This document shows, one piece after another, positions 2,479-42,948 of a stretch of 64,000 nucleotides of DNA. The DNA is from Candidatus Deferrimicrobiaceae bacterium (GTDB taxonomy: Bacteria > Desulfobacterota > Deferrimicrobia > Deferrimicrobiales > Deferrimicrobiaceae). The position numbers were made by a program, and so were the translations under genes. The DNA lies in contig DASXVV010000013.1 of NCBI GenBank assembly GCA_036504035.1, positions 139,302-203,301 of the forward strand, given 5' to 3'. The notes beneath the pieces were generated by a model. That model had not been told where the DNA came from, searched no databases, and saw only the letters and a list, made by a program, of their open reading frames with translations. Each line of letters begins with the position of its first letter. Positions within the stretch are counted from its first letter, which is position 1.

Positions 2479-3342
2479 TCATTTGCCGGGAATATTGAAT
2501 ACCGGCGCCGCCAGCAGCTTCGTCGGCCCTTCGAGCTGCGGGACCTGTTCGAAGTTGTGGCTGGACATCTCTTCGCCCGTGATCGTCAGCAGCTTCCGGT
2601 AGGTCGTCGCCCAGTTGGCGGCGCGCAGCGACCACCACAGATAATACGTCAGCGCCCCGTGATAGTCACCGTCGATCCAGGCGTCGGCAGAGGTCTGGTC
2701 GGACCGGCAGCCGGCGATAAGGACTGCGTTGGTCTTCGAGATGCTCAAGCCGAACTTCTTGACCCCAAGCCCTTTGTCGGGCCCGGTCATCGTCAAGGAG
2801 CGGTCGATGCCGCGATTCTCGATGCGGCTCTCGGACCGGTGACGGATCTCGACCGGCGCGGGAATAAACTTGTACCGGATCGGCAGGTCGGGGTTCAGGT
2901 ATTCGCGAAGGCCCGTCCCCGAGTGACAGCAATCGAGGATGACGGTGAACAGCGCCACTTTCGGCACCCGCTTGCAGATCTCGGCCATGTCGTCATCGGT
3001 AAACGGGTTGTCCCAGTCGAGGTCGTACGGGCAGATGATCTCGTCGAGGTTGTCGGAAAGCTCGTCGCCGTGGACATCTCGAACTTGGGTTCCGTGGCCC
3101 GAATAATGGAATACGAGCGAGTCGCCCGGCTTCGCATCGGCCACCAATTGTTCTAACCCGGTCCGGATGGCGGACGTCGTCGCCCGCTGATCGGTCAGAA
3201 GCCGGACGTCCTGGTTCGCGAACCCGTACTGTTCCTTGAGCGTCTTGGCGATCAACAGGACGTCGTTGACGCAGCCTTTAAGCGTATTGCGTGGATCAGG
3301 ATAGCGGTTGATGCCGACAAGAAAAGCTTTCTTGGATGACAA
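2479..3342 (-). CDS. Caspase-like (peptidase C14) protein
   Basis: This 287-residue protein is a bacterial metacaspase-type cysteine peptidase. The catalytic dyad is visible: His83 in HYSGHGTQ and Cys139 in [10 protein letters not shown], each following a hydrophobic strand. The N-terminal [12 protein letters not shown] strand and the Asp-rich segment [17 protein letters not shown] fit the p20 fold. There is no signal peptide and no attached repeat or effector domain. A GGAGG ribosome site lies just upstream of the ATG. The stop overlaps a possible rmlA start, so the two genes are probably co-transcribed. A -24/-12 type promoter match lies upstream. The substrate is unknown. Orphan caspases of this class occur in cyanobacteria and deltaproteobacteria, but a link to polysaccharide formation is only contextual. 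Confidence 0.88.
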
Positions 3343-3377: not shown

Positions 3378-3393
3378 CGCATAAAATGCGCCA
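3378..3393 (-). promoter_or_regulatory. Candidate sigma-54 promoter of the caspase-rmlA operon
   Basis: On the minus strand the sequence TGGCGCATTTTATGCG has GG and GC dinucleotides with the 10-bp spacing demanded by sigma-54 holoenzyme. The match to TGGCAC-N5-TTGCW is imperfect at the -12 side (ATGCG). Transcription would start about 25 bases before the caspase ATG. This is a pattern match only, and it is weaker than the sites upstream of the nearby PEP-CTERM genes. Confidence 0.4.
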
Positions 3394-3410
3394 ACGGCGC
3401 AAAAAGCACG

Positions 3411-3443
3411 AAAAAAAGCCCCGACCATCGGCCGGGGCTTTTG
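3411..3443 (-). terminator. Intrinsic terminator after the 3463-3999 PEP-CTERM gene
   Basis: An inverted repeat AAAGCCCCG / CGGGGCTTT with a short loop is followed on the minus strand by a run of seven T. It lies 20 bp past the stop of the PEP-CTERM gene and separates it from the caspase operon. Because the stem is A/T-flanked on both sides it may work in both directions. Confidence 0.8.
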
Positions 3444-3462
3444 AAATCCGATCGTGGACGAA

Positions 3463-3999
3463 TTACTGGCGAAGCGTCCGTCGGCGGGTGACAAACGCGA
3501 CTGCAACCAGGCCGAACCCGAGTAAGACAAACGTTCCGGGTTCTGGAACGGCCTTCGTATAATCGAGCGTGAACTTCGACTTATCGAGATAAATCAAGTC
3601 AAGGCAGGAATAGTTCAGGGCGATATCGAGCATGCCGCCGCCCCAAGTCGGCGAAAAAACCGGAGCGATATTAAAGTTGAATTCTTTGGCGGACCCAAAG
3701 ATATTGATTTTCAGGAAATTGGGAACGTCACCGACCTTGACCCCCTCGACGTAGAGGGGGTCGGCCCCGACATTCCAGCCCTTGAGGAAAATATCGAGTG
3801 CGGCGCTGTTGACGGTATCGGGCGGGATCTTGAACCCGTCCGGGGTATTGTGCTGCCATTTCAACGTACCCGAGCCGATGAGACCGAAACCGATCTTGTC
3901 CAAATCCTTGATGTCGGTGAAAATGGTCGCTCTGGCTGTGCTTGCATTTATAATTGAAACATTTAGCACGAGCAGGAGAACCATCCAGATTTTGTTCAT
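3463..3999 (-). CDS. PEP-CTERM sorting-domain protein (178 aa)
   Basis: The protein has an N-terminal signal peptide (MNKIWMVLLLVLNVSIINA..., cut likely after TARA), a mature region of about 120 residues rich in beta-strand-like segments, and a C-terminal sorting signal: VPEPGT, a hydrophobic helix, and the basic tail TRRRTLRQ. Such proteins are exported and then processed at the PEP motif by an exosortase. The ATG at 3999 is chosen because AGGGAGT lies just upstream and the signal peptide starts there; an upstream in-frame start adds a non-secretory leader. The mature part resembles no family that I recognise. A -24/-12 promoter-like site lies upstream and a strong terminator follows. Confidence 0.9.
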   Translation of the reverse strand: MNKIWMVLLLVLNVSIINASTARATIFTDIKDLDKIGFGLIGSGTLKWQHNTPDGFKIPPDTVNSAALDIFLKGWNVGADPLYVEGVKVGDVPNFLKINIFGSAKEFNFNIAPVFSPTWGGGMLDIALNYSCLDLIYLDKSKFTLDYTKAVPEPGTFVLLGFGLVAVAFVTRRRTLRQ

Positions 4000-4045
4000 A
4001 AAAACTCCCTTTTGAATTCGACTATATTCAAGACATAGGCAGACA

Positions 4046-4061
4046 ATCAATTATCATGCCA
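4046..4061 (-). promoter_or_regulatory. Candidate sigma-54 promoter of the 178-aa PEP-CTERM gene
   Basis: The minus strand reads TGGCATGATAATTGAT. The -24 half is a close match (TGGCAT) and the -12 half is TTGAT at the correct spacing, with A in place of the usual C of the GC pair. The predicted transcript would have a leader of about 35 nt ahead of the ATG at 3999. A single CGTTAA half-site lies 21 bp upstream of the -24 box. Confidence 0.5.
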
Positions 4062-4221
4062 GATCATTCTGTCTATATATTCGTTAATAAACCAAGGTGT
4101 TAGCGGACCCGATAGCATTGGCGCGCCGCCTGGGAGCCATAAGTCCCTTTTGATGACCCAATATGGGCAATATCTTGCTTATATTGGGTTCCGGACCACA
4201 GAATGCGGCAGAAAAGGGACG

Positions 4222-4262
4222 GAAACGAAAAGCCCCGGTTTTCGGCCGGGGCTTTTCGTTTC
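4222..4262 (-). terminator. Intrinsic terminator of the 62-aa PEP-CTERM gene
   Basis: A perfect 17-bp inverted repeat (4222-4238 with 4246-4262, 7-nt loop) has a GCCCCGG core and A/T-rich outer arms. It begins 15 bp past the stop codon at 4277. A TTTT run follows the GC core on the minus strand. The long symmetric stem makes it efficient in either direction. Confidence 0.85.
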
Positions 4263-4276
4263 TTCAGGTATTGTGG

Positions 4277-4465
4277 CTACTTCCGCAGACTTCTCCGACG
4301 GGCGATGAAAGCTGCCGCAGTCATGCCGAACCCCAGAATCCCCATTGTGGCAGGTTCATAAAAGTTGAGAAAGACTTCCTTGGGAACCATGCCGGCGCTA
4401 GCGGAAGTTATTATTGCAAGGAGGAAACCGAACGTCCCGAGCCAAACCACCCAGCCTTTTTCCAT
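4277..4465 (-). CDS. Miniature PEP-CTERM protein (62 aa)
   Basis: The ATG at 4465 has GGAGG 8 bases upstream. The product is a signal peptide (MEKGWVVWLGTFGFLLAIITSASA), then only about 15 residues (GMVPKEVFLNFY), then a PEP-CTERM-like tail: EPATMGILGFGMTAAAFIA with the basic end RRRSLRK. The sorting motif lacks the first proline (YEPAT instead of PEPGT). The gene has its own candidate -24/-12 promoter and a perfect terminator, so it looks like a complete functional unit and not a remnant. The mature peptide after both cleavages would be very short. Its function is unknown; a secreted peptide or a substrate decoy for exosortase are possibilities. Confidence 0.75.
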   Translation of the reverse strand: MEKGWVVWLGTFGFLLAIITSASAGMVPKEVFLNFYEPATMGILGFGMTAAAFIARRRSLRK

Positions 4466-4517
4466 GTGCAGCCTCCATCGAAACCGACAGTTGAACGAAT
4501 CCAACGGTTTCTTTAGG

Positions 4518-4533
4518 AGCAGTTTTTATGCCA
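4518..4533 (-). promoter_or_regulatory. Candidate sigma-54 promoter of the miniature PEP-CTERM gene
   Basis: The minus strand reads TGGCATAAAAACTGCT: TGGCAT at -24 and CTGCT at -12 with exact spacing, close to the consensus TGGCAC-N5-TTGCW. Initiation would fall near 4507, giving a leader of about 42 nt. A palindromic motif shared with the next PEP-CTERM promoter begins 11 bp upstream. Confidence 0.65.
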
Positions 4534-4543
4534 TGCCGATGTG

Positions 4544-4573
4544 ATCATGTAACGTATTGATTCCGTGAACTAT
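4544..4573 (-). promoter_or_regulatory. Palindromic upstream element A (candidate PrsR site)
   Basis: This 30-bp segment matches the segment at 4930-4959 (opposite strand) at about 22 positions. Shared blocks are ATC, TGTAACGTA, GAT, CGT, AAC and AT in the same order and spacing. The arms GTAACG and CGTGAAC form an imperfect inverted repeat, as expected for a dimeric activator. It lies directly upstream of the sigma-54 promoter of the 62-aa gene, in the same orientation relative to the promoter as element B. Confidence 0.6.
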
Positions 4574-4619
4574 TTGTTTGCGAATAAACATCCCCGATGA
4601 TTTCTGATTGTCTTTAGTG

Positions 4620-4745
4620 GGAAATAGATTACCTACTCTGGCGCTAGCCTCCCGCTTCGGAATCGCTCCATAGCCGTCTTGCCCTTTCGGCAAGTAGCCA
4701 AAAAGGCGGGTGGATCCGGAAAGGTGTCGGCGTGGGTGTAAGATT
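4620..4745 (-). other. Intergenic segment with RNA-like secondary structure
   Basis: The 631-bp gap between the two divergent PEP-CTERM genes has no convincing gene. Read on the minus strand, this part contains CTTGCC-GAAAG-GGCAAG (6-bp stem with a GNRA-like loop), enclosed by GGCTA and TAGCGCC, which pair with one bulge, with a further small hairpin (TCCGAAGCGGGA). The order suggests a three-way junction. It resembles the layout of GEMM-type riboswitches, but the diagnostic ACGCAAAGCC box is absent. It lies outside both predicted leaders, so it would need its own transcript. Low certainty. Confidence 0.3.
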
Positions 4746-4929
4746 CCTCGTCTGTCCTCCATCGGGCCAATCTGAAAGCTAACTTATTGTATTTGCAGAT
4801 CATTATGCCAATAGTCCACGCATTTCCGTATCGTTCGTCCTTGAATAGTCGGAATATTTTACAACGTCCGTCTCCTCCAAAAACAAACTGGATTCACGAT
4901 CCCGGATCAAAACCTCAGGAACCATATAT

Positions 4930-4959
4930 ATCGTTAACGTTATCGCTACGTTACAAGAT
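4930..4959 (+). promoter_or_regulatory. Palindromic upstream element B (candidate PrsR site)
   Basis: This is the second copy of the 30-bp motif found at 4544-4573. Its arms GTTAACG and CGTTAC form an inverted repeat around a GATAAC/GTTATC core. It begins 62 bp and ends 33 bp upstream of the -24 box at 4992. Relative to the promoters, elements A and B differ in distance by about 22 bp, close to two helical turns. This fits an enhancer site for a sigma-54 activator; PrsR, encoded 900 bp away, is the obvious candidate. Confidence 0.6.
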
Positions 4960-4991
4960 ATACCAAGGATGCGTTTCTCGCTTCGCTGCGT

Positions 4992-5007
4992 TGGTATGTC
5001 AATTGCA
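4992..5007 (+). promoter_or_regulatory. Candidate sigma-54 promoter of the 204-aa PEP-CTERM gene
   Basis: TGGTATGTCAATTGCA has TGG at -24, a perfect TTGCA at -12, and the exact 10-bp distance between GG and GC. Transcription should start near 5018, about 80 nt before the ATG. ATACCAA at 4960-4966 and TTGGTAT at 4991-4997 form an inverted repeat that overlaps the -24 box. Confidence 0.65.
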
Positions 5008-5826: not shown

Positions 5827-7191
5827 TCAATCAGCCCCTCGGACGAGTCGGTGTTTTTTAATGAAGTCATGCAAGGTGGGGCGGCTGATCTCGAGTTCCT
5901 GCGCCGCCTTCGAGATATTCCACTCGCATTTCCACAACGTTTTCAGGATGTGCTCTCGCTCTACCTGTCCCCGAACTTCTTTCAATGAATCCGTCGTCTC
6001 TTCGCCACCAGCCTGCGGCAACTCAAGATCTCCGGGGGTGAGAATTTTCTTTTCGCTCATGATTACGGCCCGCTTGATCCGGTTCTCAAGTTCCCGGATG
6101 TTGCCCGGCCATGCGTAGGATTTCATCGCAACCAGGGAGTCAGTGCGAAAACCGATGACTTTCCGTTGATACTGTTCCGAAAATTTCCCGACGAAATGAT
6201 TGGCCAGCAGCACGATGTCTTCCCCGCGTTCCCGAAGCGGTGGCGCGACGATGTTCACCACGCCCAACCGGTAATACAAGTCTTCTCGGAACCGACCCTC
6301 CGATACCTCTTTTTTTAGCTCCCGGTTTGTTGCTGCGATCACCCGGACGTTGACGTCAACGGTTTCACGCCCCCCGACCCGCTCCAGCTTGAATTCCTGG
6401 AGGAACCGGAGAAGCTTGACCTGGAGCAGCAAGGGAAGTTCCCCGACCTCGTCAAGAAAAAGGGTTCCCCCTGCGGCGTACTCGATCCTTCCCTTGCGTT
6501 GCGAATCCGCCCCGGTGAAAGATCCCTTTTCGTGACCGAAAAGCTCGCTTTCCAGGAGATTATCCGGGATGGCGCCGCAGTTGATCGCGATGAACGGCCG
6601 ATCCTTGAATCCATCCCCGGAGCGATGGATGGCGTTGGCGATCAACTCCTTGCCCGTCCCGCTCTCTCCCTCGATCAATACGGGTGCATCCGTTTTCGCC
6701 ACCTTCTTTATGACGGCGAATATGCGTTTGATCGGGGGGCACTCTCCGATGAATTCGCCGAATTCGCCGGCGCGGTCTCCCATCTTGAGTGCAAGGTTCT
6801 CGCGTTCCATATCCGAGATCTTGAGCGCCCTTTTCAGCACGACCTTCACTTCCTGGAAATCAGCCGGCTTGAGAAAGAAATCAAACGCGCCCTGATCGAT
6901 CGCTTTCAATGCGTTTTCCTTGGACTGATTACCCGTGATCACGATCACCTTCGTCTTGCCGTCGACCTCCAGCAATTCGCAAAGGCATTTCAGCCCTTCC
7001 TCGGCGGTTCGAGGAGATGGCGGCAAGCCGAGATCCATCAGAACCAGAGAGGGCCGCTCCTGGCGCATTTGCTCAAGCGCGCAGATCCGGTTCTCCGCCA
7101 AGATCACCTGGTAGTCGGGATTCAGCGCCCACTTCATCTGGCTGCGGATGGCTTCCTCGTCCTCGACGACCAGCAGTTTTGGTTTATCCAT
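5827..7191 (-). CDS. prsR: PEP-CTERM system sigma-54 response regulator PrsR
   Basis: This is a 454-residue NtrC-family regulator. The receiver domain (about 5-125) has acidic residues E10, D11 and E12 and phospho-acceptor Asp53 in LVLMDLGLP. The AAA+ domain (about 140-385) has Walker A GESGTGKE and the sigma-54 contact loop in the form GSFTGA instead of the usual GAFTGA. A Fis-type helix-turn-helix ends the protein (ISKAAQELEISRPTLHDFI). The insertion SPRTAEEG after the acceptor Asp is typical of PrsR. Its gene sits 3 bp downstream of prsK, so the pair is one operon. It should activate the -24/-12 promoters found upstream of the local PEP-CTERM genes. Confidence 0.93.
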   Translation of the reverse strand: MDKPKLLVVEDEEAIRSQMKWALNPDYQVILAENRICALEQMRQERPSLVLMDLGLPPSPRTAEEGLKCLCELLEVDGKTKVIVITGNQSKENALKAIDQGAFDFFLKPADFQEVKVVLKRALKISDMERENLALKMGDRAGEFGEFIGECPPIKRIFAVIKKVAKTDAPVLIEGESGTGKELIANAIHRSGDGFKDRPFIAINCGAIPDNLLESELFGHEKGSFTGADSQRKGRIEYAAGGTLFLDEVGELPLLLQVKLLRFLQEFKLERVGGRETVDVNVRVIAATNRELKKEVSEGRFREDLYYRLGVVNIVAPPLRERGEDIVLLANHFVGKFSEQYQRKVIGFRTDSLVAMKSYAWPGNIRELENRIKRAVIMSEKKILTPGDLELPQAGGEETTDSLKEVRGQVEREHILKTLWKCEWNISKAAQELEISRPTLHDFIKKHRLVRGAD

Positions 7192-7194
7192 CGC

Positions 7195-9207
7195 TTATGC
7201 GGTCCCGACCGGCAGGGAAATCCGGAACGAGGTTCCTTTCCCCAGGATGCTTTCCACGTCGATCCTTCCCCCGTGGGCCTCGATGATGCCTTTCGTCTGG
7301 TAGAGCCCGATGCCGAACCCGTTGCTCTTGGTCGTCGAGAACGGCTTGAACAGCCGGTGATCGACGTAGTCCGGCGTCATGCCGCACCCGTCGTCCGATA
7401 CCGTCAGGAGAAGTTTCCCGTCGACGAACGCGGTCGAGAGGTGAATTTCCCCGCCTTCGGCCATCGCGTCATTCGCGTTCAGGAGCAGGTTGGTGAGGAC
7501 CCTCTTGATCTGACCACCGTCCAGCAGCGTCTCCGGCACCTTCCCCAGATCCTCCCGGATATCCGCCTTGAGGGAACCGCGAACCTCGGAAATCGCCTCG
7601 GCGGTCAGCCGGCTGAGATCCGTCCTCCTGAAATCCGGTTCGACATCCCGCGAAAGCCCGGCCAAGTGCTCCATCATCTTCTTCATCTTCTCGACCGTTT
7701 GCGCGATGCTGTGTATCGCATCCTTCCTGAACTCGGGATCGTCGAGGTTCCTTTCCGCGTTCTGCACGACCAGCGAGAGCATCGAAACGAAATTCTTCAT
7801 GTCATGGAGCACGAACGCCGAAAAGGAATGGAAGTCTTCCATCTCCTTGGCGCGAAGCAGGTTCTCCGACCATTGCGCGATCAGGAAGCTGTTGGCGGCC
7901 TGACGCGCCACCGTATTCAACAGATCGAGGTCTTCGCGATCAAAGGGGTGACCGGAACGGCTCTTGCCGCAGCCGAGTACGCCGACGAGCCGATCGCCCG
8001 TTACCAGGGGAACCAGTACCGAGATCCCCTCCGACCGGCACGACTCGAGAGCTTTCGGTAACATCTCCGGTGTCAGGACCTCTTCCATATCGTCCACTTT
8101 GACGGGATATCCGTGCATCTTGATGCTGTTGAACACGGCCGTATTCAGTGCGGTGATCCGGTCGCTGGATGCCGTATCTGCAGTCGCGCCGATGCGGTGC
8201 AACTCCCCTTCCCGTTCGTCGCACAGCCATAGGGTCGTCTGCTCGATCCAGACCGTTTCCTGGAGCATTTCGGAGATTGCCGACAACAGGCTGCGGGGAT
8301 CCAGCGTGGAGCTGAGTCGCGCCGTCAAGGCCAGCCATTCCTTGTGATAGTCGTACCGGTTGCGATAGAAGTGCCGATTGATAAAGCTCTTGAACTGCTT
8401 TTGGACGCGCGTGGACATGAAGACGGAAAGTAACCCCAAGACCGCGATGAAGGCGAACCAGATTCCGATATAGTTGCTGAAACTTCCTCCCAGGCTCCGG
8501 ATCGCCTGTGCCGTCAACCCGACGACCAACAGGTAAGCTCCGATCGCCAGCACGGTAAAGGAGTTGTAGACAAAGTAGCGGGAAACGAAGACGTCGACTT
8601 CGAACAATCGGTGCCGGACGAGGGAGAAGCCGACGAAACCGATCCCGACCAGGTCGGTCAGGGCCGTCATCGTTCCCAGGTCGATCCGGCTGGATGGGTA
8701 AAGAATCTGCTGCGAGTTGGCGTAGATCCGGACCAGGAGCATGACACCGACGCCGAGCAGGAGAAACTTGATCCGCCAGCGTTGCGTATGCGCCGAAGCT
8801 CGCAACGTCGTCTCGAAAGCGGCGAGGACCAGCGTGAGACCGAGCACGATGAAGACGGAGGAATAGTATTCCCCCCGGGCGGGTGAAATCGGAAAGATCG
8901 ATGCGATGTCGGGGACGAGCAGGCCGATAAAGTAGAAGGTGGTGACGACCAAGAAAGCCGTTCCTGCGCGCCAGCCCGGAGAAGATTTCAGCAGGTCGTC
9001 TCGTGAAAGCCCCAGGGCGAACATGAGCCAGGAAACAGGGAGAAGGCATTCCCCTGCCCGCATGACATCACGGGAAGCGATGAAAACGCCCAGTTCCGTC
9101 AGCGCCAGCGATGCCATGCCGATGGCGAACCAGCGGTTGACCGACCGGAGGAAGTTCCGGGAGAGGATGAAGACACCCATCCCCGCAAACGCCGCAGTGA
9201 CGGTCAA
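7195..9207 (-). CDS. prsK: PEP-CTERM system sensor histidine kinase PrsK
   Basis: This 670-residue membrane kinase starts with about eight predicted membrane segments (residues 1-260), followed by a GAF-like domain (about 290-440), a dimerization segment with the phosphorylatable His in VLHDMKN (about 460) and an ATPase domain ending in GIGLYQTKGIIEAHGG. The N-box NLLLNANDAM and G-box DDGCGMTP are intact. This architecture matches PrsK, partner of PrsR in PEP-CTERM/exosortase systems. The gene lies just downstream of an amputated exosortase with a 13-bp gap, as expected if exosortase, kinase and regulator were once one operon. Upstream sequence is now foreign, so its promoter may have changed. 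Confidence 0.92.
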   Translation of the reverse strand: MTVTAAFAGMGVFILSRNFLRSVNRWFAIGMASLALTELGVFIASRDVMRAGECLLPVSWLMFALGLSRDDLLKSSPGWRAGTAFLVVTTFYFIGLLVPDIASIFPISPARGEYYSSVFIVLGLTLVLAAFETTLRASAHTQRWRIKFLLLGVGVMLLVRIYANSQQILYPSSRIDLGTMTALTDLVGIGFVGFSLVRHRLFEVDVFVSRYFVYNSFTVLAIGAYLLVVGLTAQAIRSLGGSFSNYIGIWFAFIAVLGLLSVFMSTRVQKQFKSFINRHFYRNRYDYHKEWLALTARLSSTLDPRSLLSAISEMLQETVWIEQTTLWLCDEREGELHRIGATADTASSDRITALNTAVFNSIKMHGYPVKVDDMEEVLTPEMLPKALESCRSEGISVLVPLVTGDRLVGVLGCGKSRSGHPFDREDLDLLNTVARQAANSFLIAQWSENLLRAKEMEDFHSFSAFVLHDMKNFVSMLSLVVQNAERNLDDPEFRKDAIHSIAQTVEKMKKMMEHLAGLSRDVEPDFRRTDLSRLTAEAISEVRGSLKADIREDLGKVPETLLDGGQIKRVLTNLLLNANDAMAEGGEIHLSTAFVDGKLLLTVSDDGCGMTPDYVDHRLFKPFSTTKSNGFGIGLYQTKGIIEAHGGRIDVESILGKGTSFRISLPVGTA

Positions 9208-9220
9208 AGTGATGACCCGG

Positions 9221-9493
9221 CTAATCAGGCGGTGCCTCGCTTCGGCGCAGCGCCGACAATACGCAACCCAGCAGCAACATAGCGACGAGGAAAAACACGA
9301 CCCCGCCCCGGTGGTGCAGATTTCCGGTCATGAACCCAGGATCGACATGAATGCTCAACAGCGACAGCCCCACGATCCGGACGGCGTTCATGAAGATAGT
9401 GATCGGGAATACTACCACCGCCAGAGCAACCTTCTGCCATCCCGACTTGAGGAGAAGATGTTCGCTAGGACGCTCAGAAATAATTGGACCCAT
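9221..9493 (-). pseudogene. Amputated exosortase (C-terminal part only)
   Basis: The 90 remaining residues match the C-terminal part of an XrtA-like exosortase: NAVRIVGLSLLSIHVDPGF carries the catalytic Arg, and LHHRGGVVFF the catalytic His, followed by the last membrane helix. The catalytic Cys half (CSG motif) and all earlier membrane segments are missing. Homology seems to start near residue 17, at about 9445, just where AT-rich foreign DNA begins. A GGAAG lies before the ATG at 9493, so a short peptide could still be made, but it cannot act as a transpeptidase. The break is probably the left junction of the imported polysaccharide locus. Confidence 0.8.
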
Positions 9494-9604
9494 ATGTCTT
9501 CCATTCAAGTAATTAGTTGTCCCTGATATACCCGTTTCATGCGGTTGCCAAAGCCGCCTCCGTTGTGCATGTTCCCCTTACCCACTTAAAACCCGGAAGA
9601 GACA

Positions 9605-10594
9605 CTAGATGTTTTCTATTAGTATTGGGGATAAATGAATGGGAATAGAAGATTTCCTTTTAGCAATAATATCTTGGATTGCATATATTACTTGTTCTTT
9701 TGTTATATTTGAGGCAAAAGCTATTTCTTCTGCAGTTTTATTATTGTTTAGGCCCCATAGAATTATATCCAGCTTTTGATATGGAAGCACGAAATAAAAT
9801 TCATCTTGACTTTGCTTCATACTGTATGTATCGGTAGTAGGTATGGTGTCACAGATTGTTTCTGGTAAACCGAGTGCTCGTCCGAGTAGATATACTTGGC
9901 TTTTGTATAAATGAGCAATGGGTTTGATGTCGGCAGATCCATCGCCGTTTTTTACGAAAAAGCCCTGATCGTATTCTAGGCGATTCGGAGTCCCGATTAC
10001 CGCATAATTCATGCGGTCGGCGTAGTAATATTCATAGGTTTTTCTTACGCGTTGCTTGTAATTCGTTGCAGAAACCAGGTGCAAGTACTCTTTTATCGGG
10101 AGGCGTTTTTCCATCGTATCGCCCGTATTTGTTTCCACAACAATTATGAAGTGATTCAAGCGGTTTTCTTTGTACTCATTGCGATTTAGAACTATTTTAT
10201 ACTTCCATGACTTGTTGTAATCTGGAAATAAGCTCGCCACCACGTTGTCTCTCAGGTTGTAGCATCCAAATGCTTCTAAAACTGGTGTAATGTTTATTAC
10301 TTCATAGTTTATATTAAGGTGTTTGCAAACAATTTCGCCTAATATCATGCTGTTTGGAGACGAATCTGACTCCGGCAGCAATAAACCATATACATTATCT
10401 CTCCCAAATGCTTCAACGGTTAGTGCTGCACATACGGAACTATCAATGCCGCCGGAAATTGCAACAACAGCACCTTTTTTCTTTAAAACTTTATGTACGG
10501 AATCTTTTAATATGGAGATAATTTGAGTTATGACTTCGTCTGGCTTAATATCCAGCCAAGGGTGAATGTGATTATTGGTAAAAATTGGGACCAT
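9605..10594 (-). CDS. NAD synthase-like ATP pyrophosphatase
   Basis: This 329-residue protein belongs to the NadE fold. The ATP-binding P-loop is AISGGIDSSVCA (about 46-57), and the second signature GTPNRLEYDQGFFVKNGDGSADIKPI includes the residues that bind adenylate and divalent metal. It lacks a glutaminase domain. A 40-residue insertion (about 130-170) and the AT-rich composition set it apart from a housekeeping NadE. Members in polysaccharide loci are thought to form an amide on a sugar or acyl substituent by an adenylated intermediate; this role is inference. A GAGGTGG ribosome site precedes the ATG. It sits beside the island junction, followed upstream by a decayed transposase. Confidence 0.78.
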   Translation of the reverse strand: MVPIFTNNHIHPWLDIKPDEVITQIISILKDSVHKVLKKKGAVVAISGGIDSSVCAALTVEAFGRDNVYGLLLPESDSSPNSMILGEIVCKHLNINYEVINITPVLEAFGCYNLRDNVVASLFPDYNKSWKYKIVLNRNEYKENRLNHFIIVVETNTGDTMEKRLPIKEYLHLVSATNYKQRVRKTYEYYYADRMNYAVIGTPNRLEYDQGFFVKNGDGSADIKPIAHLYKSQVYLLGRALGLPETICDTIPTTDTYSMKQSQDEFYFVLPYQKLDIILWGLNNNKTAEEIAFASNITKEQVIYAIQDIIAKRKSSIPIHLSPILIENI

Positions 10595-10761
10595 TTATGT
10601 CCACCTCGATTTAATGCGGACTACGAAAAAGTTATTGAATACCACTGCTGTTCAAGTTAACCTGAACTCAACGATTCGCCCCGCGTATAAAAAGGGGTTT
10701 TAGACGAAAAATGGCCCATATCGAATCCAGGTTTACATCGTTTCACCCGATGCTGTCCAAA

Positions 10762-11813
10762 TCAGCGCCCCAACAGCGCTGGCTGTTCCCCGCCCGGTTG
10801 CAGCGGTGGGGTTTCGAACGGATCGTCCAGCCAGGTCCACAAGTCCCTGTAGGTGAACAGGTTATACCGGAGCAACGCCAGAGGTTGGAGAGCAACTAGG
10901 CGATCCGCGACCGGAACTACAGGTACTTCAGCAGCAGGATCGCGATCAATGCTGTCCAAATCTGGATTTTGAGCGCGTTGGCGTTTGTCCCCACGAACTT
11001 CTTGACCTTCAGGTTCTGCTTGATCGTCTTGAAGAAGATCTCAATCTGCCAGCGATCCTTGTAGATCGCAGCGACCGTCACCGAGGCGAGTTTCATGTTG
11101 TTGGTAAGCAGGACGATCGTCCGCTTGTTTTCGGCATCCCACACCTCGACCCGGCGCAGCCGGTGAGGGCACTTCTTTTGAGCGGCTGCGCCATCCCGTT
11201 CGATGATCTGGTCTTCAAGAACAAGAACCGCGCACCTGAACGGCGTGCTCCTCGACGACGTGGCAGAGAGCGTTGTCTTTCAGGCGAGTAACGAAGAATA
11301 CGCCTTGCTCCGCGAAGAAGCCGTAGTCGTTGTATCCGCGGTCCATGGCAACGATGGAACCTGACGGGAGCGACAAGTCCTTGGCCATCTTGACTTCGTG
11401 GACGTTTCCTTTCGTGATGTGGGCGAAGACCGGCAGGTACCCCTCGTGATCCAGGAGCAGGTGCAACCTCACCGCTCCCTTGGCCAGAGGCTTACAGATC
11501 GAAAGTATCTGGAAAAGAGCTTCTGGTAAAGCGTCCACGACCTGTGTTCATTGGCGTACGCCAGGGTCGAACGGTGCGGCGCTTCCGAAATATCCAGATG
11601 CTTGAGCTTGTCCAGGCAACTGGCCAACCCGCCGCAGATCTCCCGCAGCGATTTGGCCTGCCCCACCTGGCAAAAGAGCCTCGACACGAATTGACCACAG
11701 CAGGAATAGCCCTTGGCGTCCCGTTCGGCGCCCGTTTCTTTGACGATGGCGTAAAATTCGCTCTTCGGGACGACGTGTAAAATCTGGCCGAACATGCGGA
11801 TAGACTTGTTCAT
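10762..11813 (-). pseudogene. Decayed IS4-family transposase (DUF4372 type)
   Basis: Four reading-frame pieces line up with one transposase. 11469-11813 encodes the N-terminal DUF4372 part (MNKSIRMFGQILHVVP...). About 11235-11510 encodes the middle with GAVRLHLLLDHEGYLP and the second catalytic Asp in VAMDRGYND. 10917-11230 encodes KDRWQIEIFFKTIKQ with the catalytic Glu. 10762-10890 encodes LLRYNLFTYRDLWTWLDDPF. Roughly 100 bp with the first catalytic Asp is missing near 11510, there is a frameshift near 11235, two TAG codons occur where the family has Gln and Trp (from 10919), and a further frameshift follows. It cannot be active without help. Clear terminal inverted repeats were not found. 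Confidence 0.88.
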
Positions 11814-12079
11814 CGCAGGGGGCCCCTTAGAGGGGCCGGAACCAATACTCTACCCAAAAGGGATTCCCTGCTCATGAACGTCGTAAACCTCACCTCAACC
11901 CCGAAAACCTATATTAGGCATGTCTGAGGGGACATACATTTTTATATTAATCCCTAACGGGTAGAATTCCCCGCGACTCGCTGCGCTTCCGGCGGTTTGC
12001 GGTCTTGGTTTAGATACCTCATGGCTTGCCCCGAGACAGTTCATTAGTTATTCGATTATACATTGAATATTAAAAAGTG

Positions 12080-13648
12080 CTAAGAAGTTAATTCTATTTC
12101 CCTTAATTGTCTCACTGATATTTTTCCGCTTTCAGTTTTAGGTAGAGACTTCATTATTTTTACATGTTTTGGTACACATATTGTTTCCAGATTATCTTTG
12201 CAGTAGTTGATGATGTCTATTTCATTTATATTGATCCCTTCCTCTAGGGAAACATACGCTTTTGCGATGGTACCCCAAATCGGGTCATCAACTCCGATTA
12301 CTGCCGCTTCTAATATACCGTCAATACTATACAATACATTTTCTATCTCTTTTGGGCTAACCTTCTCTCCTTTAATCTTTAAGATGTTGTCACTTCTACC
12401 GAGAAAGTATAGATATCCATCGGTATCTATTTTGAAAATATCTCCTGTATGAAGTTGCATTTCCCACGGGTATGGTCCTGGTTTTAAGTATTTCTCGGTT
12501 TCTTCTGGATTATTCCAATACCCCTTCATGACATTGGCCCCTCGTACAACTAGTTCACCTACACCTTCTCTATTAGTGATCCGTTTGTTGTTATCATCAA
12601 TTAAATAAACTTCCTCGTTTGGCATCCCTTTTCCGACAGAGTTTGGTTTTTTGTCGATGTCGTCCGGATGAAGAAAAGTGACGCGCTTGCATTCTGTGAG
12701 TCCGTACATAGAATAGATTTTTGCGTTCGGGCATAGAGTACGGAGGCGTTGGATATGAGCCGGGCTTAATGCCGCAGCGGTATTGGTGATGTATCGAATC
12801 GTTCTCAGTTTTTGGCTATCTGGAAATTTTAAGCTTAGAAGGATGGAAAATATTGTGGGTACCCCAGGGAAACCTGTGACGCCTTCGGTTTCGATCAAAT
12901 CTAAAACCGAGGCGGGGTACCCAAATCTTTGTTCAAGTATTAGCCTGCCGCCTATTTTAAAGGACATGAGGAGTTGATATAGCCCGTAATCAAATGAAAG
13001 AGGTAAAAAGTTTATGATGATGTCATCCTGATTGTTTTCAAGATATTCGGTTATCGAATTTGCTGCAGTTATCATGTTTAAATGGGTCAGGATAACTCCT
13101 TTGGGAAACCCGGTTGATCCAGAGGTATACATAATAGAGGCCATATCAATATCTATATTATCCGGTTTGAGATAATTCGATCCATGTTTATTGATCAATT
13201 CATGGTAATTCAAATACGATCTGTTATTGTCAGGTGAATAGTCTAGATCAATGTCGCCAGTTACGATTGATAGATGTAAACTTGGAACACGTATAGATCT
13301 TTCGATATCCAAATTATCTGTATTGGTGATGAGAGCGGTAGCGCCGCAATCATTCAAGATAAATTCGAGTTTGTCCTTTTTTGTTACCCCATTAATTAAT
13401 ACAAATATAGCATCTGCCTTGAGTACTCCAAAGATGCTGATAGCGTTTTCGACTGAATTGTCGAGATATATTCCAACCCTGTCTCCTCTTTTGATGCCAT
13501 TCGACTTCAAGCCACAGGCTAAATTCTCGGCGTATTGATTAATAGTTTTGTAAGATAACCTTTGTTGTCCACAAACAAGTCCGATTTTATCAGGGGTATG
13601 AATTGCACTTCTTTCTAAAAATTCCTGAATCAGAATTTCTCGTTTCAT
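12080..13648 (-). CDS. AMP-forming acyl/aryl (or amino acid) ligase
   Basis: This is a 522-residue ANL-superfamily adenylating enzyme. The P-loop-like motif MYTSGSTGFPKGVILTH (about 178-194), SMYGLTECKR, the ATP-binding LHTGDIFKIDTDGYLYFLGRSDNILK and the C-terminal catalytic Lys in PKTESGKISVRQ are all present. It activates a carboxylic acid as an acyl-adenylate and passes it to a thiol. With a separate carrier protein 300 bp downstream, that acceptor is probably the carrier and not CoA. The substrate cannot be deduced. The composition is strongly AT-rich relative to the flanking chromosome, consistent with recent transfer. Confidence 0.88.
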   Translation of the reverse strand: MKREILIQEFLERSAIHTPDKIGLVCGQQRLSYKTINQYAENLACGLKSNGIKRGDRVGIYLDNSVENAISIFGVLKADAIFVLINGVTKKDKLEFILNDCGATALITNTDNLDIERSIRVPSLHLSIVTGDIDLDYSPDNNRSYLNYHELINKHGSNYLKPDNIDIDMASIMYTSGSTGFPKGVILTHLNMITAANSITEYLENNQDDIIINFLPLSFDYGLYQLLMSFKIGGRLILEQRFGYPASVLDLIETEGVTGFPGVPTIFSILLSLKFPDSQKLRTIRYITNTAAALSPAHIQRLRTLCPNAKIYSMYGLTECKRVTFLHPDDIDKKPNSVGKGMPNEEVYLIDDNNKRITNREGVGELVVRGANVMKGYWNNPEETEKYLKPGPYPWEMQLHTGDIFKIDTDGYLYFLGRSDNILKIKGEKVSPKEIENVLYSIDGILEAAVIGVDDPIWGTIAKAYVSLEEGININEIDIINYCKDNLETICVPKHVKIMKSLPKTESGKISVRQLREIELTS

Positions 13649-24687: not shown

Positions 24688-25358
24688 CGGGCAGGAAGGT
24701 TCGAGTCGATCCCTTTCAGGGATTCGGGATCAAACCAGGTGACCACCACCCTGTTGGAACGTTCGGTTTTTTTGGCTACGCCCAGGACGACATTGTTTAG
24801 TTTGGACGTGGAGCGTTGCATCGCAATGTTCCATTTTTTTACAACGTAGTAAGCTCTTTCGACTCCCTGGGTCGATACATTGGAAAACACGAAATTCATG
24901 AAAATCGGAAATAACCCTTTCCCCCGGAACAGTTCATTGGTCCCACCATCAAACACATACAAGTCTTTCCCTGTTAGCGGAAAATAAAAAGGCTCAACTG
25001 TTTTTTGACGCGTCGTCCAAAGAAATGAAACCATTTGTCCCTCGAATCGCATGACCCATAAGAGGGCACCGATGTTGAACCGTTCCGCTGCCTGACCAAG
25101 AAACTCGGACTTGCCGATGTTCTCATAAAATTGGTTCAATTCGTCCGTTCGGAGTCCTTCGAGGTCTATTACGGATCGAATCTCGATCGAATCAGGAATC
25201 TTTTGCTCCGCCAAGGAACAACTGGACAGGTCGAACATATATATGATCCCTTGATTCTGAAAAAGAAACCGAAGTAAAATTTCTTTAAGTTTCCGGGACG
25301 TATCCACGATCCCGTGCTTCCGGCAATACCGCCGGATTCTTCTGAACCAGGACATCAT
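24684..25358 (-). CDS. GNAT-like acyltransferase (putative)
   Basis: This 224-residue protein has a fold reminiscent of GNAT acetyltransferases in the second half: VMRFEGQMVSFLWTTRQ (strand pair), GTNELFRGKGLFPIFMNFV (RGKG resembles the R/Q-x-x-G-x-G/A acetyl-CoA loop) and VERAYYVVKKWNIAMQRSTSKLN (Asn and Tyr-rich end with the usual NxxS segment). The N-terminus is basic and amphipathic. The start is the ATG at 25358, which overlaps the upstream stop (ATGA) and lies behind GGGGAG. Similar proteins sit beside FemAB-like genes in exosortase loci. The substrate is unknown; a sugar amine is plausible. Confidence 0.65.
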   Translation of the reverse strand: MMSWFRRIRRYCRKHGIVDTSRKLKEILLRFLFQNQGIIYMFDLSSCSLAEQKIPDSIEIRSVIDLEGLRTDELNQFYENIGKSEFLGQAAERFNIGALLWVMRFEGQMVSFLWTTRQKTVEPFYFPLTGKDLYVFDGGTNELFRGKGLFPIFMNFVFSNVSTQGVERAYYVVKKWNIAMQRSTSKLNNVVLGVAKKTERSNRVVVTWFDPESLKGIDSNLPAR

Positions 25359-37765: not shown

Positions 37766-37983
37766 GAACGCCCCCTGCGGCCCTTCCCCACGTACGGCAA
37801 ATCTATTCTGCCAAAATCAGTTACAAGATGCATGCCGGTTTCCTCCGGGAATACAAGAGAGGCAACCTGGCGCAATGATTGATAATTGTTGTTCTGACAC
37901 ATCATCATGAGGATGAGAGGCGAAACGGTGTGGGAAATAACTTTCCCTGATTAAGCAATTAAGCGGAGCTGTTTTCTTTGCCT

Positions 37984-41220: not shown

Positions 41221-42720
41221 CTAGGCTTCGTCGAGCCCGCACTCCTTGATCTTGTAGAGGAGCGCCTTGTAACTGATGTCGAGGATCGTGGCCGCCTTGC
41301 GCCGGTTCCAGCGCGTCTGCCCGAGGACGCGTTCGATCAGCACCCGCTCGGCGTTCCGTTGAGCGAGCTTGGCCACTTCCTTGAGCGTCGCGTTTTCGGG
41401 AGGCGGGGACGCGTGTCCCGCGTTGGGCGTCGGGGCGTAGCTGGTGAACGCGGTGGACCTTCCGCCCTCCGTCGAATAGGCCTCGTCGCGGAAATCGCGG
41501 AGCCCCGCAGGGGCGACGGCATCCATCTCGGTCGGGGTCGCATATCCGCCGTTGTCGCGCTTGCGAGTGAACTCGGAGATCAGCTGGGATTCGTTTCCCA
41601 GGATGATGTACCGCTTGATGTTGTTTTCGAGCTCGCGCACGTTGCCGGGCCAGGTATAGGAGAGAAACATCTCCATCAACCGGGGAGAGATGGGAACCGG
41701 TTCGCGATTGTACATCTCGGAATAGCGGTGCAGAAAATAATCGGACAGCAAGGCGATGTCGTCCTTGCGCTCCCGCAGGGGCGGAATCACGATGTTGACG
41801 ACGTTGATCCGATAAAAGAGGTCGCGTCGGAACCGCCCCTCGTCGACCATGCGCTCGAGGTTCTTGTTGGTGGCGGTGAGGATGCGGCAGTTGGCCTTGA
41901 CTTCTTTCTCGCCCCCGATCCGGTAGTACTGCTTTTCCTGCAGCACGTGAAGCAGCTTGCTCTGCAGGTCGAGATGCATCTCGGTAATCTCGTCGAGGAA
42001 GATGGTGCCGTTCTGCGCCATCTCGAACCGGCCGTATTTCCGGCGGTGCGCGCCCGTGAAAGCCCCCTTTTCGAAGCCGAACAGCTCGCTTTCGAGCAGC
42101 TCGCGGGGGAGTGCCGCGCAATTGACCTTGATGAAGGGCTCACCGCTCCGGTCGGACTCCTTGTGGAGGGCGCGCGCCATCAGCTCCTTGCCGGTGCCGG
42201 ATTCGCCGGAGATGAGGACGGTGATGTCGGTGTTGGCCACCTGGTCGACGGTCGCCTGGAGCTTGGTCATCTGCTCGCCCAGGGAAAACAGCAGCTGATA
42301 TTCCTCGTCGACCCGCACCTTGGTCTTGAGCTCCTGGAGCTCCCACTTGGCCTGGCTGTTCTCGAGCGCCATCTGGATCTTGAGCGCCAGCTCTTCTCCG
42401 TGGAACGGTTTCTTGATGTAGTCGCTGGCGCCATCCTTCATGGCCCGGACGACTTCCTCGACGTCGGACTGCCCGGAAACCATGATGATGGGGGTGGTCG
42501 GGGAATGGCCCTTGAAGGGCTTGATCAGGTCGACGCCGCTGCCGTCGGGCAGAAAGATGTCGAGAACGACGCAGGAGAACGGATGCAGAAGGAAGGCGCT
42601 TTCGGCCTCGGCCTTGTTGAAGGCCGTAATGACCTTATGGCCCTTCTCTTCCAGCAGATTTTTGGTGAATTGGGTGAATACAGGGTCGTCGTCAACAAGC
42701 AGCACGAGATGGGGCGTCAT
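41221..42720 (-). CDS. Sigma-54-dependent response regulator of the polysaccharide locus
   Basis: This is a 499-residue NtrC-family activator. Receiver domain: DDD at 10-12 and acceptor Asp54 in CVVLDIFLPDGSG. AAA+ domain: GESGTGKELMARALH, the canonical GAFTGA loop in FGFEKGAFTGAHRRKYG, and RRDLFYRINVV. A Pro/Ala-rich linker of about 60 residues precedes a Fis-type helix-turn-helix (WNRRKAATILDISYKALLYKIKECG). No histidine kinase is beside it. The ATG at 42720 lies behind GGAGG. It is distinct from PrsR and heads the wza-wzz-kinase group, so it probably controls polysaccharide genes. Confidence 0.9.
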   Translation of the reverse strand: MTPHLVLLVDDDPVFTQFTKNLLEEKGHKVITAFNKAEAESAFLLHPFSCVVLDIFLPDGSGVDLIKPFKGHSPTTPIIMVSGQSDVEEVVRAMKDGASDYIKKPFHGEELALKIQMALENSQAKWELQELKTKVRVDEEYQLLFSLGEQMTKLQATVDQVANTDITVLISGESGTGKELMARALHKESDRSGEPFIKVNCAALPRELLESELFGFEKGAFTGAHRRKYGRFEMAQNGTIFLDEITEMHLDLQSKLLHVLQEKQYYRIGGEKEVKANCRILTATNKNLERMVDEGRFRRDLFYRINVVNIVIPPLRERKDDIALLSDYFLHRYSEMYNREPVPISPRLMEMFLSYTWPGNVRELENNIKRYIILGNESQLISEFTRKRDNGGYATPTEMDAVAPAGLRDFRDEAYSTEGGRSTAFTSYAPTPNAGHASPPPENATLKEVAKLAQRNAERVLIERVLGQTRWNRRKAATILDISYKALLYKIKECGLDEA

Positions 42721-42871
42721 CTGGCTTGCCTCCGGCAACGACTATAATGCAAAACCTGATTGCTGCCGAATATACCATGAAAGGAAATATTTTTCCCAAG
42801 AAAAGAATGCGATTGCTGCCGGGGGCGGCATTTTAATCGATAAGCGAGATTTTGGGGAAAAATGGGAAAAT

Positions 42872-42948
42872 TGGTGGCGGTGCAGGGACTTGAACCCCGG
42901 ACACTGCGGATATGAACCGCATGCTCTAACCAACTGAGCTACACCGCC
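42872..42948 (-). tRNA. tRNA-Met (anticodon CAT)
   Basis: The minus-strand sequence folds as a full cloverleaf: acceptor GGCGGTG/CACCGCC, D-arm GCTC...GAGC, anticodon stem TGCGG/CCGCA around the loop TTCATAT with anticodon CAT, and T-arm CCGGGGTTCAAGTCCC. The CCA end is encoded. The sequence is typical of elongator Met; a lysidine-modified Ile reading of CAT is less likely. It marks the border between the polysaccharide locus and ordinary chromosome. Confidence 0.93.

Follow-up and report, generated by a model that had tools for sequence, protein, structure and literature searches.

The 64-kb stretch analysed here (the window, on contig DASXVV010000013.1 of a Candidatus Deferrimicrobiaceae bacterium) carries three PEP-CTERM genes, which we call pepA, mini and pepC, beside the genes for the histidine kinase PrsK and the sigma-54 activator PrsR. 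Farther along lies an exopolysaccharide/exosortase cluster headed by the gene of another sigma-54 activator, named EBP2 here (Table 1). Counts given for the window refer to this stretch, scores are in bits, and the results come from sequence computation alone. A preliminary description of this DNA had taken the cluster as one PrsR regulon; the layout of promoter and enhancer-like sites suggests instead that it is probably under two sigma-54 systems, PrsK/PrsR and a kinase–activator pair, HK2/EBP2.

Sigma-54 sites and enhancer-like boxes at the PEP-CTERM genes

A weight matrix for the -24/-12 element, built from consensus frequencies, was applied to both strands of the window (127,970 placements). 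The three best matches (14.8, 14.1 and 12.9) all precede PEP-CTERM genes, and the fourth-best reaches 10.5. The preliminary description had placed GG-N10-GC-type strings at four gene starts, and all four are present at the positions and on the strands that it gave, the one before pepC, which it had called imperfect, reading GG-N10-GA. As sigma-54 sites, the three at PEP-CTERM genes hold up, while the fourth, before a caspase-like gene, ranks at background level. TTGA instead of TTGC at -12 is also found at relatives' promoters with PrsR boxes (L167, L178), which makes the pepC site credible. We regard the three promoters before pepA, mini and pepC as almost certainly real on these matches. A genome search found a single rpoN gene, and three further PEP-CTERM genes above cut-off (L009, L011 and L013) elsewhere in the genome.

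Two minor features of this region may be recorded. The 62 residues of mini appear by eye to comprise a signal peptide, about 12 residues and then the sorting signal (4277-4465, minus strand), and the matches listed for it in the loci compared are to itself and to the C-terminal portion of pepC only. The string TACGTTACA(A/T)GAT occurs upstream of the -24 sites of both pepA and mini (4948-4955 and 4548-4555), at distances to -24 that differ by 22 bp; it was dropped as a candidate activator site, is possibly due to chance and forms part of neither box matrix described below.

Of 395 genomes of the phylum, 52 have a PrsR above its family cut-off. Forty PrsR neighbourhoods were fetched from the phylum, and a script using a home-made rule, not a hidden Markov model, called 34 PEP-CTERM genes there; a separate PrsR scan covered at least 80 loci, few of them true PrsR. 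Beside PrsR in these other genomes, a sigma-54 site of at least 12 bits lies within 300 nt of the start in 30 of the 34 PEP-CTERM genes, versus 4 of 397 other genes at the same PEP-CTERM-yielding loci (34 of 40 PEP-CTERM genes when the six of the window's own genome are added). The conservation upstream of orthologues by which the preliminary description proposed to judge these sites is therefore found.

Both PrsK and PrsR pass their family profiles (TIGR02916 and TIGR02915), so that PrsR does indeed lie directly beside the PEP-CTERM genes. A motif search upstream of the sigma-54 sites of 34 promoters, six of which belonged to the own genome or to its window, returned a 17-bp element, TGTCGG-N5-TTTACA (586.7 bits versus 315-338 for shuffled input), referred to here as the PrsR box. 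With the own genome left out and 30 promoters from other genomes as the training set, the matrix has its best match in the window at the box of pepA; the second-best (15.9, at 24827) lies amid minus-strand open reading frames (ORFs). No PrsR box was found within 200 nt of mini or pepC, the best scores being -0.4 and 1.2. In the phylum, PrsR boxes at PEP-CTERM promoters beside PrsR (L160-L194) are often paired at a separation of about 90-110 bp; the box closer to -24 then lies about 52-92 or about 109-132 bp from it.

Among the 24 genomes of the family that were run, PrsR exceeded its cut-off in the own genome only. In the family relatives, all 15 called PEP-CTERM genes have a sigma-54 site of at least 10.9 bits, 53-115 nt before the start, and none of these 15 has a PrsR box of at least 11 bits. 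A motif search without a preset pattern, run on 17 promoters (13 of relatives and four of the own genome), returned an 18-bp palindrome, TGGGAAA-N4-TTTCCCA (box 2), which scored 265.6 bits versus 160-166 in four shuffled sets and lay 72-132 bp upstream of -24. This search omitted L011, which has no sigma-54 site, L247, with 20 nt of upstream sequence, L227, with a short upstream region, and pepA, whose PrsR box was already known. The family set comprised 23 loci, with genes called by the script in 15 and none in 8; one of the uncalled, the PEP-CTERM locus of G001, was read by hand and has a box 2 of 16.3 bits and a best sigma-54 site of just 8.0.

For the window scan, the box 2 matrix was trained on the 13 relatives' promoters only. 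Its top three matches lie upstream of EBP2, the exopolysaccharide operon and mini, and the box of mini is the genome's sole exact match to TRGGNAANNNNTTNCCYA. When a box 2 of 9 bits followed 45-160 bp on by a sigma-54 site of 9.5 was required, three pairs were found in the 64 kb, at the exopolysaccharide operon, mini and pepC, against a mean of 0.17 and at most 2 in 60 shuffles; relaxing the thresholds to 8 and 8.5 gave five pairs versus 0.55. A loose form of the pattern with up to one mismatch occurs at 14 places in the whole genome, six of which stand before mini, pepC, L009, L013, EBP2 and the exopolysaccharide operon. Each of the remaining eight overlaps an open frame, and none is accompanied by a sigma-54 site of at least 9 bits at a distance of 40-160 bp.

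The two boxes are distributed separately. At a threshold of 11 bits, scored by leaving out one locus or genome each time and excluding promoters with a sigma-54 site below 11 (4 of 34 in the PrsR set) or below 10 (family set), the promoters of PrsR genomes have the PrsR box in 30 of 30 cases (within 200 nt) and box 2 in 0 of 30, and those of the family have the PrsR box in 0 of 14 and box 2 in 9 of 14. Shuffled upstream regions reached this threshold for box 2 in 13 of 1400 cases. Judged from these sequence comparisons, box 2 is very probably a real cis element.

Table 1. Features of the window, with coordinates, strands and supporting scores
Feature	Positions	Strand	Sequence	Score or remark
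caspase-like gene, possible member	2479..3342	-		caspase_w_EACC1 47.5 bits, below cut-off 140
weak -24/-12-like site before caspase gene	3378..3393	-	TGGCGCATTTTATGCG	GG-N10-GC; rank 23, 9.2 bits, background level
pepC, PEP-CTERM protein, 178 aa from ATG 3999	3463..3999	-		TIGR02595 21.9 bits, cut-off 16
predicted sigma-54 promoter of pepC	4046..4061	-	TGGCATGATAATTGAT	GG-N10-GA (GA replaces GC); rank 3
weaker box 2 of pepC, 102 bp upstream of -24	4164..4181		TAAGCAAGATATTGCCCA (on minus strand)	9.3 bits, window rank 13
mini PEP-CTERM gene, 62 aa	4277..4465	-		translation; TIGR02595 17.3 bits, cut-off 16
predicted sigma-54 promoter of mini	4518..4533	-	TGGCATAAAAACTGCT	GG-N10-GC; rank 2; 68 nt to ATG
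box 2 of mini, 84 bp upstream of -24	4618..4635		TGGGAAATAGATTACCTA	16.4 bits, window rank 3
PrsR box of pepA, 128 bp upstream of -24	4847..4863	+	AGTCGGAATATTTTACA	18.7 bits, best match in window
predicted sigma-54 -24/-12 promoter of pepA	4992..5007	+	TGGTATGTCAATTGCA	GG-N10-GC; rank 1 of 127,970; 105 nt from site start to ATG
pepA, PEP-CTERM protein, 204 aa	5097..5711	+		TIGR02595 20.6 bits, cut-off 16
prsR, response regulator with sigma-54 activator domain	5827..7191	-		TIGR02915 578.9 bits, cut-off 502.6
prsK, histidine kinase	7195..9207	-		TIGR02916 410.1 bits, cut-off 300
XrtW-like exosortase, the sole full-length one found in the genome	32274..33764	-		TIGR02602 112.6 bits, cut-off 105.55; genome search
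weak sigma-54-like site, 93 bp downstream of box 37931..37948	37822..37837	-	CGGCATGCATCTTGTA	GT replaces GC; window rank 8
box 2 upstream of exopolysaccharide/exosortase genes	37931..37948		TGGGAAATAACTTTCCCT	18.1 bits, window rank 2
EBP2, 505 aa by longest frame, ATG 42720 likelier	41221..42738	-		Pfam domains
box 2 upstream of EBP2	42781..42798		AAGGAAATATTTTTCCCA	19.5 bits, window rank 1

EBP2, HK2 and the exopolysaccharide cluster

EBP2 has the domains of an NtrC-type response regulator, all above cut-off: receiver (PF00072), sigma-54 activation (PF00158) and Fis-type helix-turn-helix (PF02954). It fails the PrsR family test (TIGR02915, 366.4 versus a cut-off of 502.6), and a tree puts it in a clade separate from PrsR. 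Orthologues of 72-87% identity occur in 11 of the 24 family genomes, and EBP2 heads the exopolysaccharide cluster wherever the contig covers it. A box 2 of at least 11.6 bits lies upstream of EBP2 in 8 of these 11 genomes, although the matrix was trained on other genes, and a sigma-54 site of at least 10 in 6 of the 11, a seventh falling just inside the frame (G010). In the window, the exopolysaccharide genes behind their box 2 lead to the full-length exosortase, which scores 384.7 against the exosortase W profile, short of its cut-off of 425. A tRNA-Met gene (42872-42948, minus strand) stands between an FG-GAP gene and EBP2, the place that HK2 has in relatives.

HK2, a kinase with receiver and HATPase domains, was found in 10 of 12 genomes queried, and these are exactly the 10 among them with EBP2. 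We infer that HK2 phosphorylates EBP2. The kinase gene precedes and adjoins EBP2 in G005, G006, G010, G011, G014, G016 and G020; in G001 it comes after a PEP-CTERM, a caspase and an rmlA gene. The own genome has it about 0.7 kb past the left end of the window, where it shares the strand of caspase and rmlA. HK2 has moved within the organism's own genus. rmlA and HK2 are neighbours in G001 and G002, and in the window an ATPase-like gene and an apparent ribbon-helix-helix/PIN toxin-antitoxin pair (60-1490, by eye) are located between rmlA and HK2. In G001 and G002, HK2 is followed by another kinase/sigma-54 activator pair, whose activator the own genome has as well (L336:6001-8940; L337:3236-6177; L335:38-1411); the operon of that pair in G001 and G002 has a sigma-54 site of its own (12.6 and 13.8) and no box 2.

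Two candidate systems and the alternatives

We propose that the three PEP-CTERM genes would be sigma-54-dependent and turned on by two different enhancer-binding proteins. PrsK/PrsR would act on pepA via the PrsR box, whereas HK2/EBP2 would turn on mini, pepC, two PEP-CTERM genes elsewhere in the genome and the exopolysaccharide operon via box 2, usually 60-145 bp upstream of -24; EBP2 would also control its own gene in most relatives. With pepA and mini oriented divergently, both boxes fall in a single 630-bp gap, where either activator may reach either promoter. These transcriptional effects are what we infer from the arrangement of sites, and EBP2 itself likely binds box 2.

A wider reading, which we favour with somewhat less confidence, is that HK2/EBP2 may be a PrsR-independent system native to the family that co-regulates PEP-CTERM genes and exopolysaccharide export through the 18-bp palindrome, with PrsK/PrsR added in this one species and the pepA-mini gap joining both inputs. 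In the PrsR tree, the own PrsR forms a deep branch with no supported partner and therefore does not show transfer from a given donor. The tree also has Malonomonas within the phylum's sequences, suggesting Thermodesulfobacteriota as the phylum. A C-terminal exosortase piece of 95 residues (9221-9508, minus strand; TIGR04178 39.3 bits, cut-off 23) adjoins prsK; it may be the remnant of an acquired PrsK/PrsR-exosortase module, because the family relatives are without PrsR.

Several results weigh against the two-system reading. Of the control regions, which were picked mechanically and may overlap real promoters, 16 of 208 reached 11 bits with box 2 and 36 of 342 with the PrsR box, and the loose box 2 pattern is genome-wide no commoner than a reversed control (28 rows versus 50). 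Five of the 14 family promoters fall below 11 bits for box 2 (one with 20 nt upstream only), the own boxes at L009 and pepC are weak under leave-one-out scoring (7.2 and 8.2), and L011 has neither sigma-54 site nor box. Upstream of EBP2, a box 2 reaching 11 bits is missing in G001, G002 and G006, and in the own genome box 2 is present there and a sigma-54 site is not. The PEP-CTERM promoters of G008 and G015 carry box 2 (10.8, 13.0 and 18.2) in genomes without EBP2 and HK2, either through gaps in the assemblies or because another regulator acts there. In six family genomes EBP2 occurs and no PEP-CTERM gene was detected at E 0.03; EBP2 may therefore be chiefly an exopolysaccharide regulator.

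The case of G008 and G015 would fit the alternative that box 2 is genuine and serves another sigma-54 activator than EBP2, for example that of the pair encoded a few genes past HK2 (G000, G001 and G002). In G001 and G002 the caspase-rmlA-HK2 group is followed by that pair, and its activator is present in G000; however, box 2 precedes EBP2 in most genomes that have it and not the operon of that pair (5.1, 6.3 and 0.0 bits), and we consider this alternative unlikely.

Enhancers are able to act across hundreds of base pairs, and PrsR alone could thus drive all three genes; its box in the shared gap would then serve mini across 313 bp and pepC across a longer distance. Such an arrangement would be in keeping with the adjacency of PrsR and with the position of its box between the divergent pepA and mini promoters. 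Nonetheless, every one of the 30 promoters in PrsR genomes has a PrsR box of its own nearby, while mini and pepC have box 2 instead, in the same layout with a sigma-54 site as in PrsR-less relatives. A single PrsR regulon, as the preliminary description had it, was accordingly rejected for these two genes, and we judge action of PrsR alone from such distances to be quite improbable.

Least probable of all, and very unlikely, is a reading of box 2 as a repressor site or as a chance AT-rich dyad beside plain sigma-54 promoters with their enhancer elsewhere, an idea that would suit the sub-threshold family promoters, the loose pattern without genome-wide enrichment and the box of the own EBP2 that stands without a sigma-54 site, but that agrees poorly with a de novo score far above shuffles, the few shuffled upstreams reaching threshold, the mostly enhancer-like spacing upstream of -24 and the location of the eight other own dyads in open frames away from sigma-54 sites.

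Relation to known systems and the caspase-like gene

Part of the two-system reading concerns a mechanism already in print. PrsR acting via an enhancer box and a -24/-12 promoter was described by Haft et al. 2006 (PMC1569441), and the start site of the RpoN-dependent pepA of Aquincola tertiaricarbonis was mapped behind a -24/-12 promoter in 2023 (PMC9850573); the promoter architecture that the preliminary description offered as new is thus not news. According to the accessible text of the 2006 paper, motif 1 is 17 bp long and ends in TTTACA, and its spacer to motif 2 averaged 62.8 bp (32-92) (PMC1569441). The window agrees with that account in that pepA has a 17-bp box ending in TTTACA and a -24/-12 site and that PrsR and PrsK pass their profiles. 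It differs in the 128-bp spacer of pepA, although spacers of 109-132 bp do occur in the phylum, and in mini and pepC, which are without motif 1 and have box 2. The Aquincola tertiaricarbonis pepA is likewise a PEP-CTERM gene with a -24/-12 promoter; unlike here, no second activator or second box is described in the available part of that paper (PMC9850573).

In Desulfovibrio vulgaris, DVUA0057, DVU0110 and DVU0804 are sigma-54 response regulators that bind to promoters of PEP-CTERM and exopolysaccharide genes, as far as the accessible parts of two papers report (PMC3333781, PMC4641369). They resemble the present case in that more than one such activator serves overlapping targets. For DVUA0057 and DVU0110 a single shared motif was assigned, whereas two motifs divide the genes here, the comparison being one of published descriptions. 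Searches of the open PMC literature turned up no account of box 2 and none that links EBP2 to PEP-CTERM genes. PrsK/PrsR with its box and -24/-12 promoters is already known, and the HK2/EBP2 system appears new as far as searched.

PEP-CTERM/exosortase systems occur widely and contribute to the flocculation of cells; in the papers cited, PrsR is the one PEP-CTERM regulator linked with a DNA box. Haft et al. 2006, in the text available, expected further PEP-CTERM regulators and motifs still to be found (PMC1569441), and box 2 with EBP2 would be one of these. The candidate put forward here supplies a defined palindrome, an activator, a kinase and testable promoters. If true, it would account for PEP-CTERM control in PrsR-less genomes and would tie PEP-CTERM genes to exopolysaccharide production by a common enhancer.

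The caspase-like gene had been put forward as a possible further member of the regulon. Neither box is near the own gene (the 300 nt upstream score 3.3 for the PrsR box), and its site is at background level. In G001, by contrast, the caspase gene has the GG-N10-GC site CGGTACGAAAGTTGCC (10.8 bits), whose GG stands 48 nt before the start, versus 50 in the own genome, and a box 2 ends 48 bp upstream of that site. This homologue was found through HK2 and is not among the genomes listed in the caspase homologue search, which tried 20 loci, the own included, with 3 not called; the script considered the upstream regions of 18 homologues. Homologues in G003, G009 and G014, within the family, have sites of at least 9.6 bits at unlike distances, with no PEP-CTERM genes or rmlA around; the region upstream of the G005 homologue has no site, and outside the family sigma-54 scores are at most 7.4. 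The caspase was rejected as a clear member, its site being at background level and the evidence from homologues scattered, while G001 speaks against full rejection. We therefore treat its inclusion in the box 2 set as tentative and somewhat doubtful. Since the G001 site comes with box 2, membership, if true, would point to the second system and not to PrsR.

Elsewhere in the window, G+C content falls to as low as 0.38 at 9605-13648, versus 0.54 for the window, and this segment holds NAD-synthetase-like and AMP-ligase-like genes (by eye) around short transposase-like frames.

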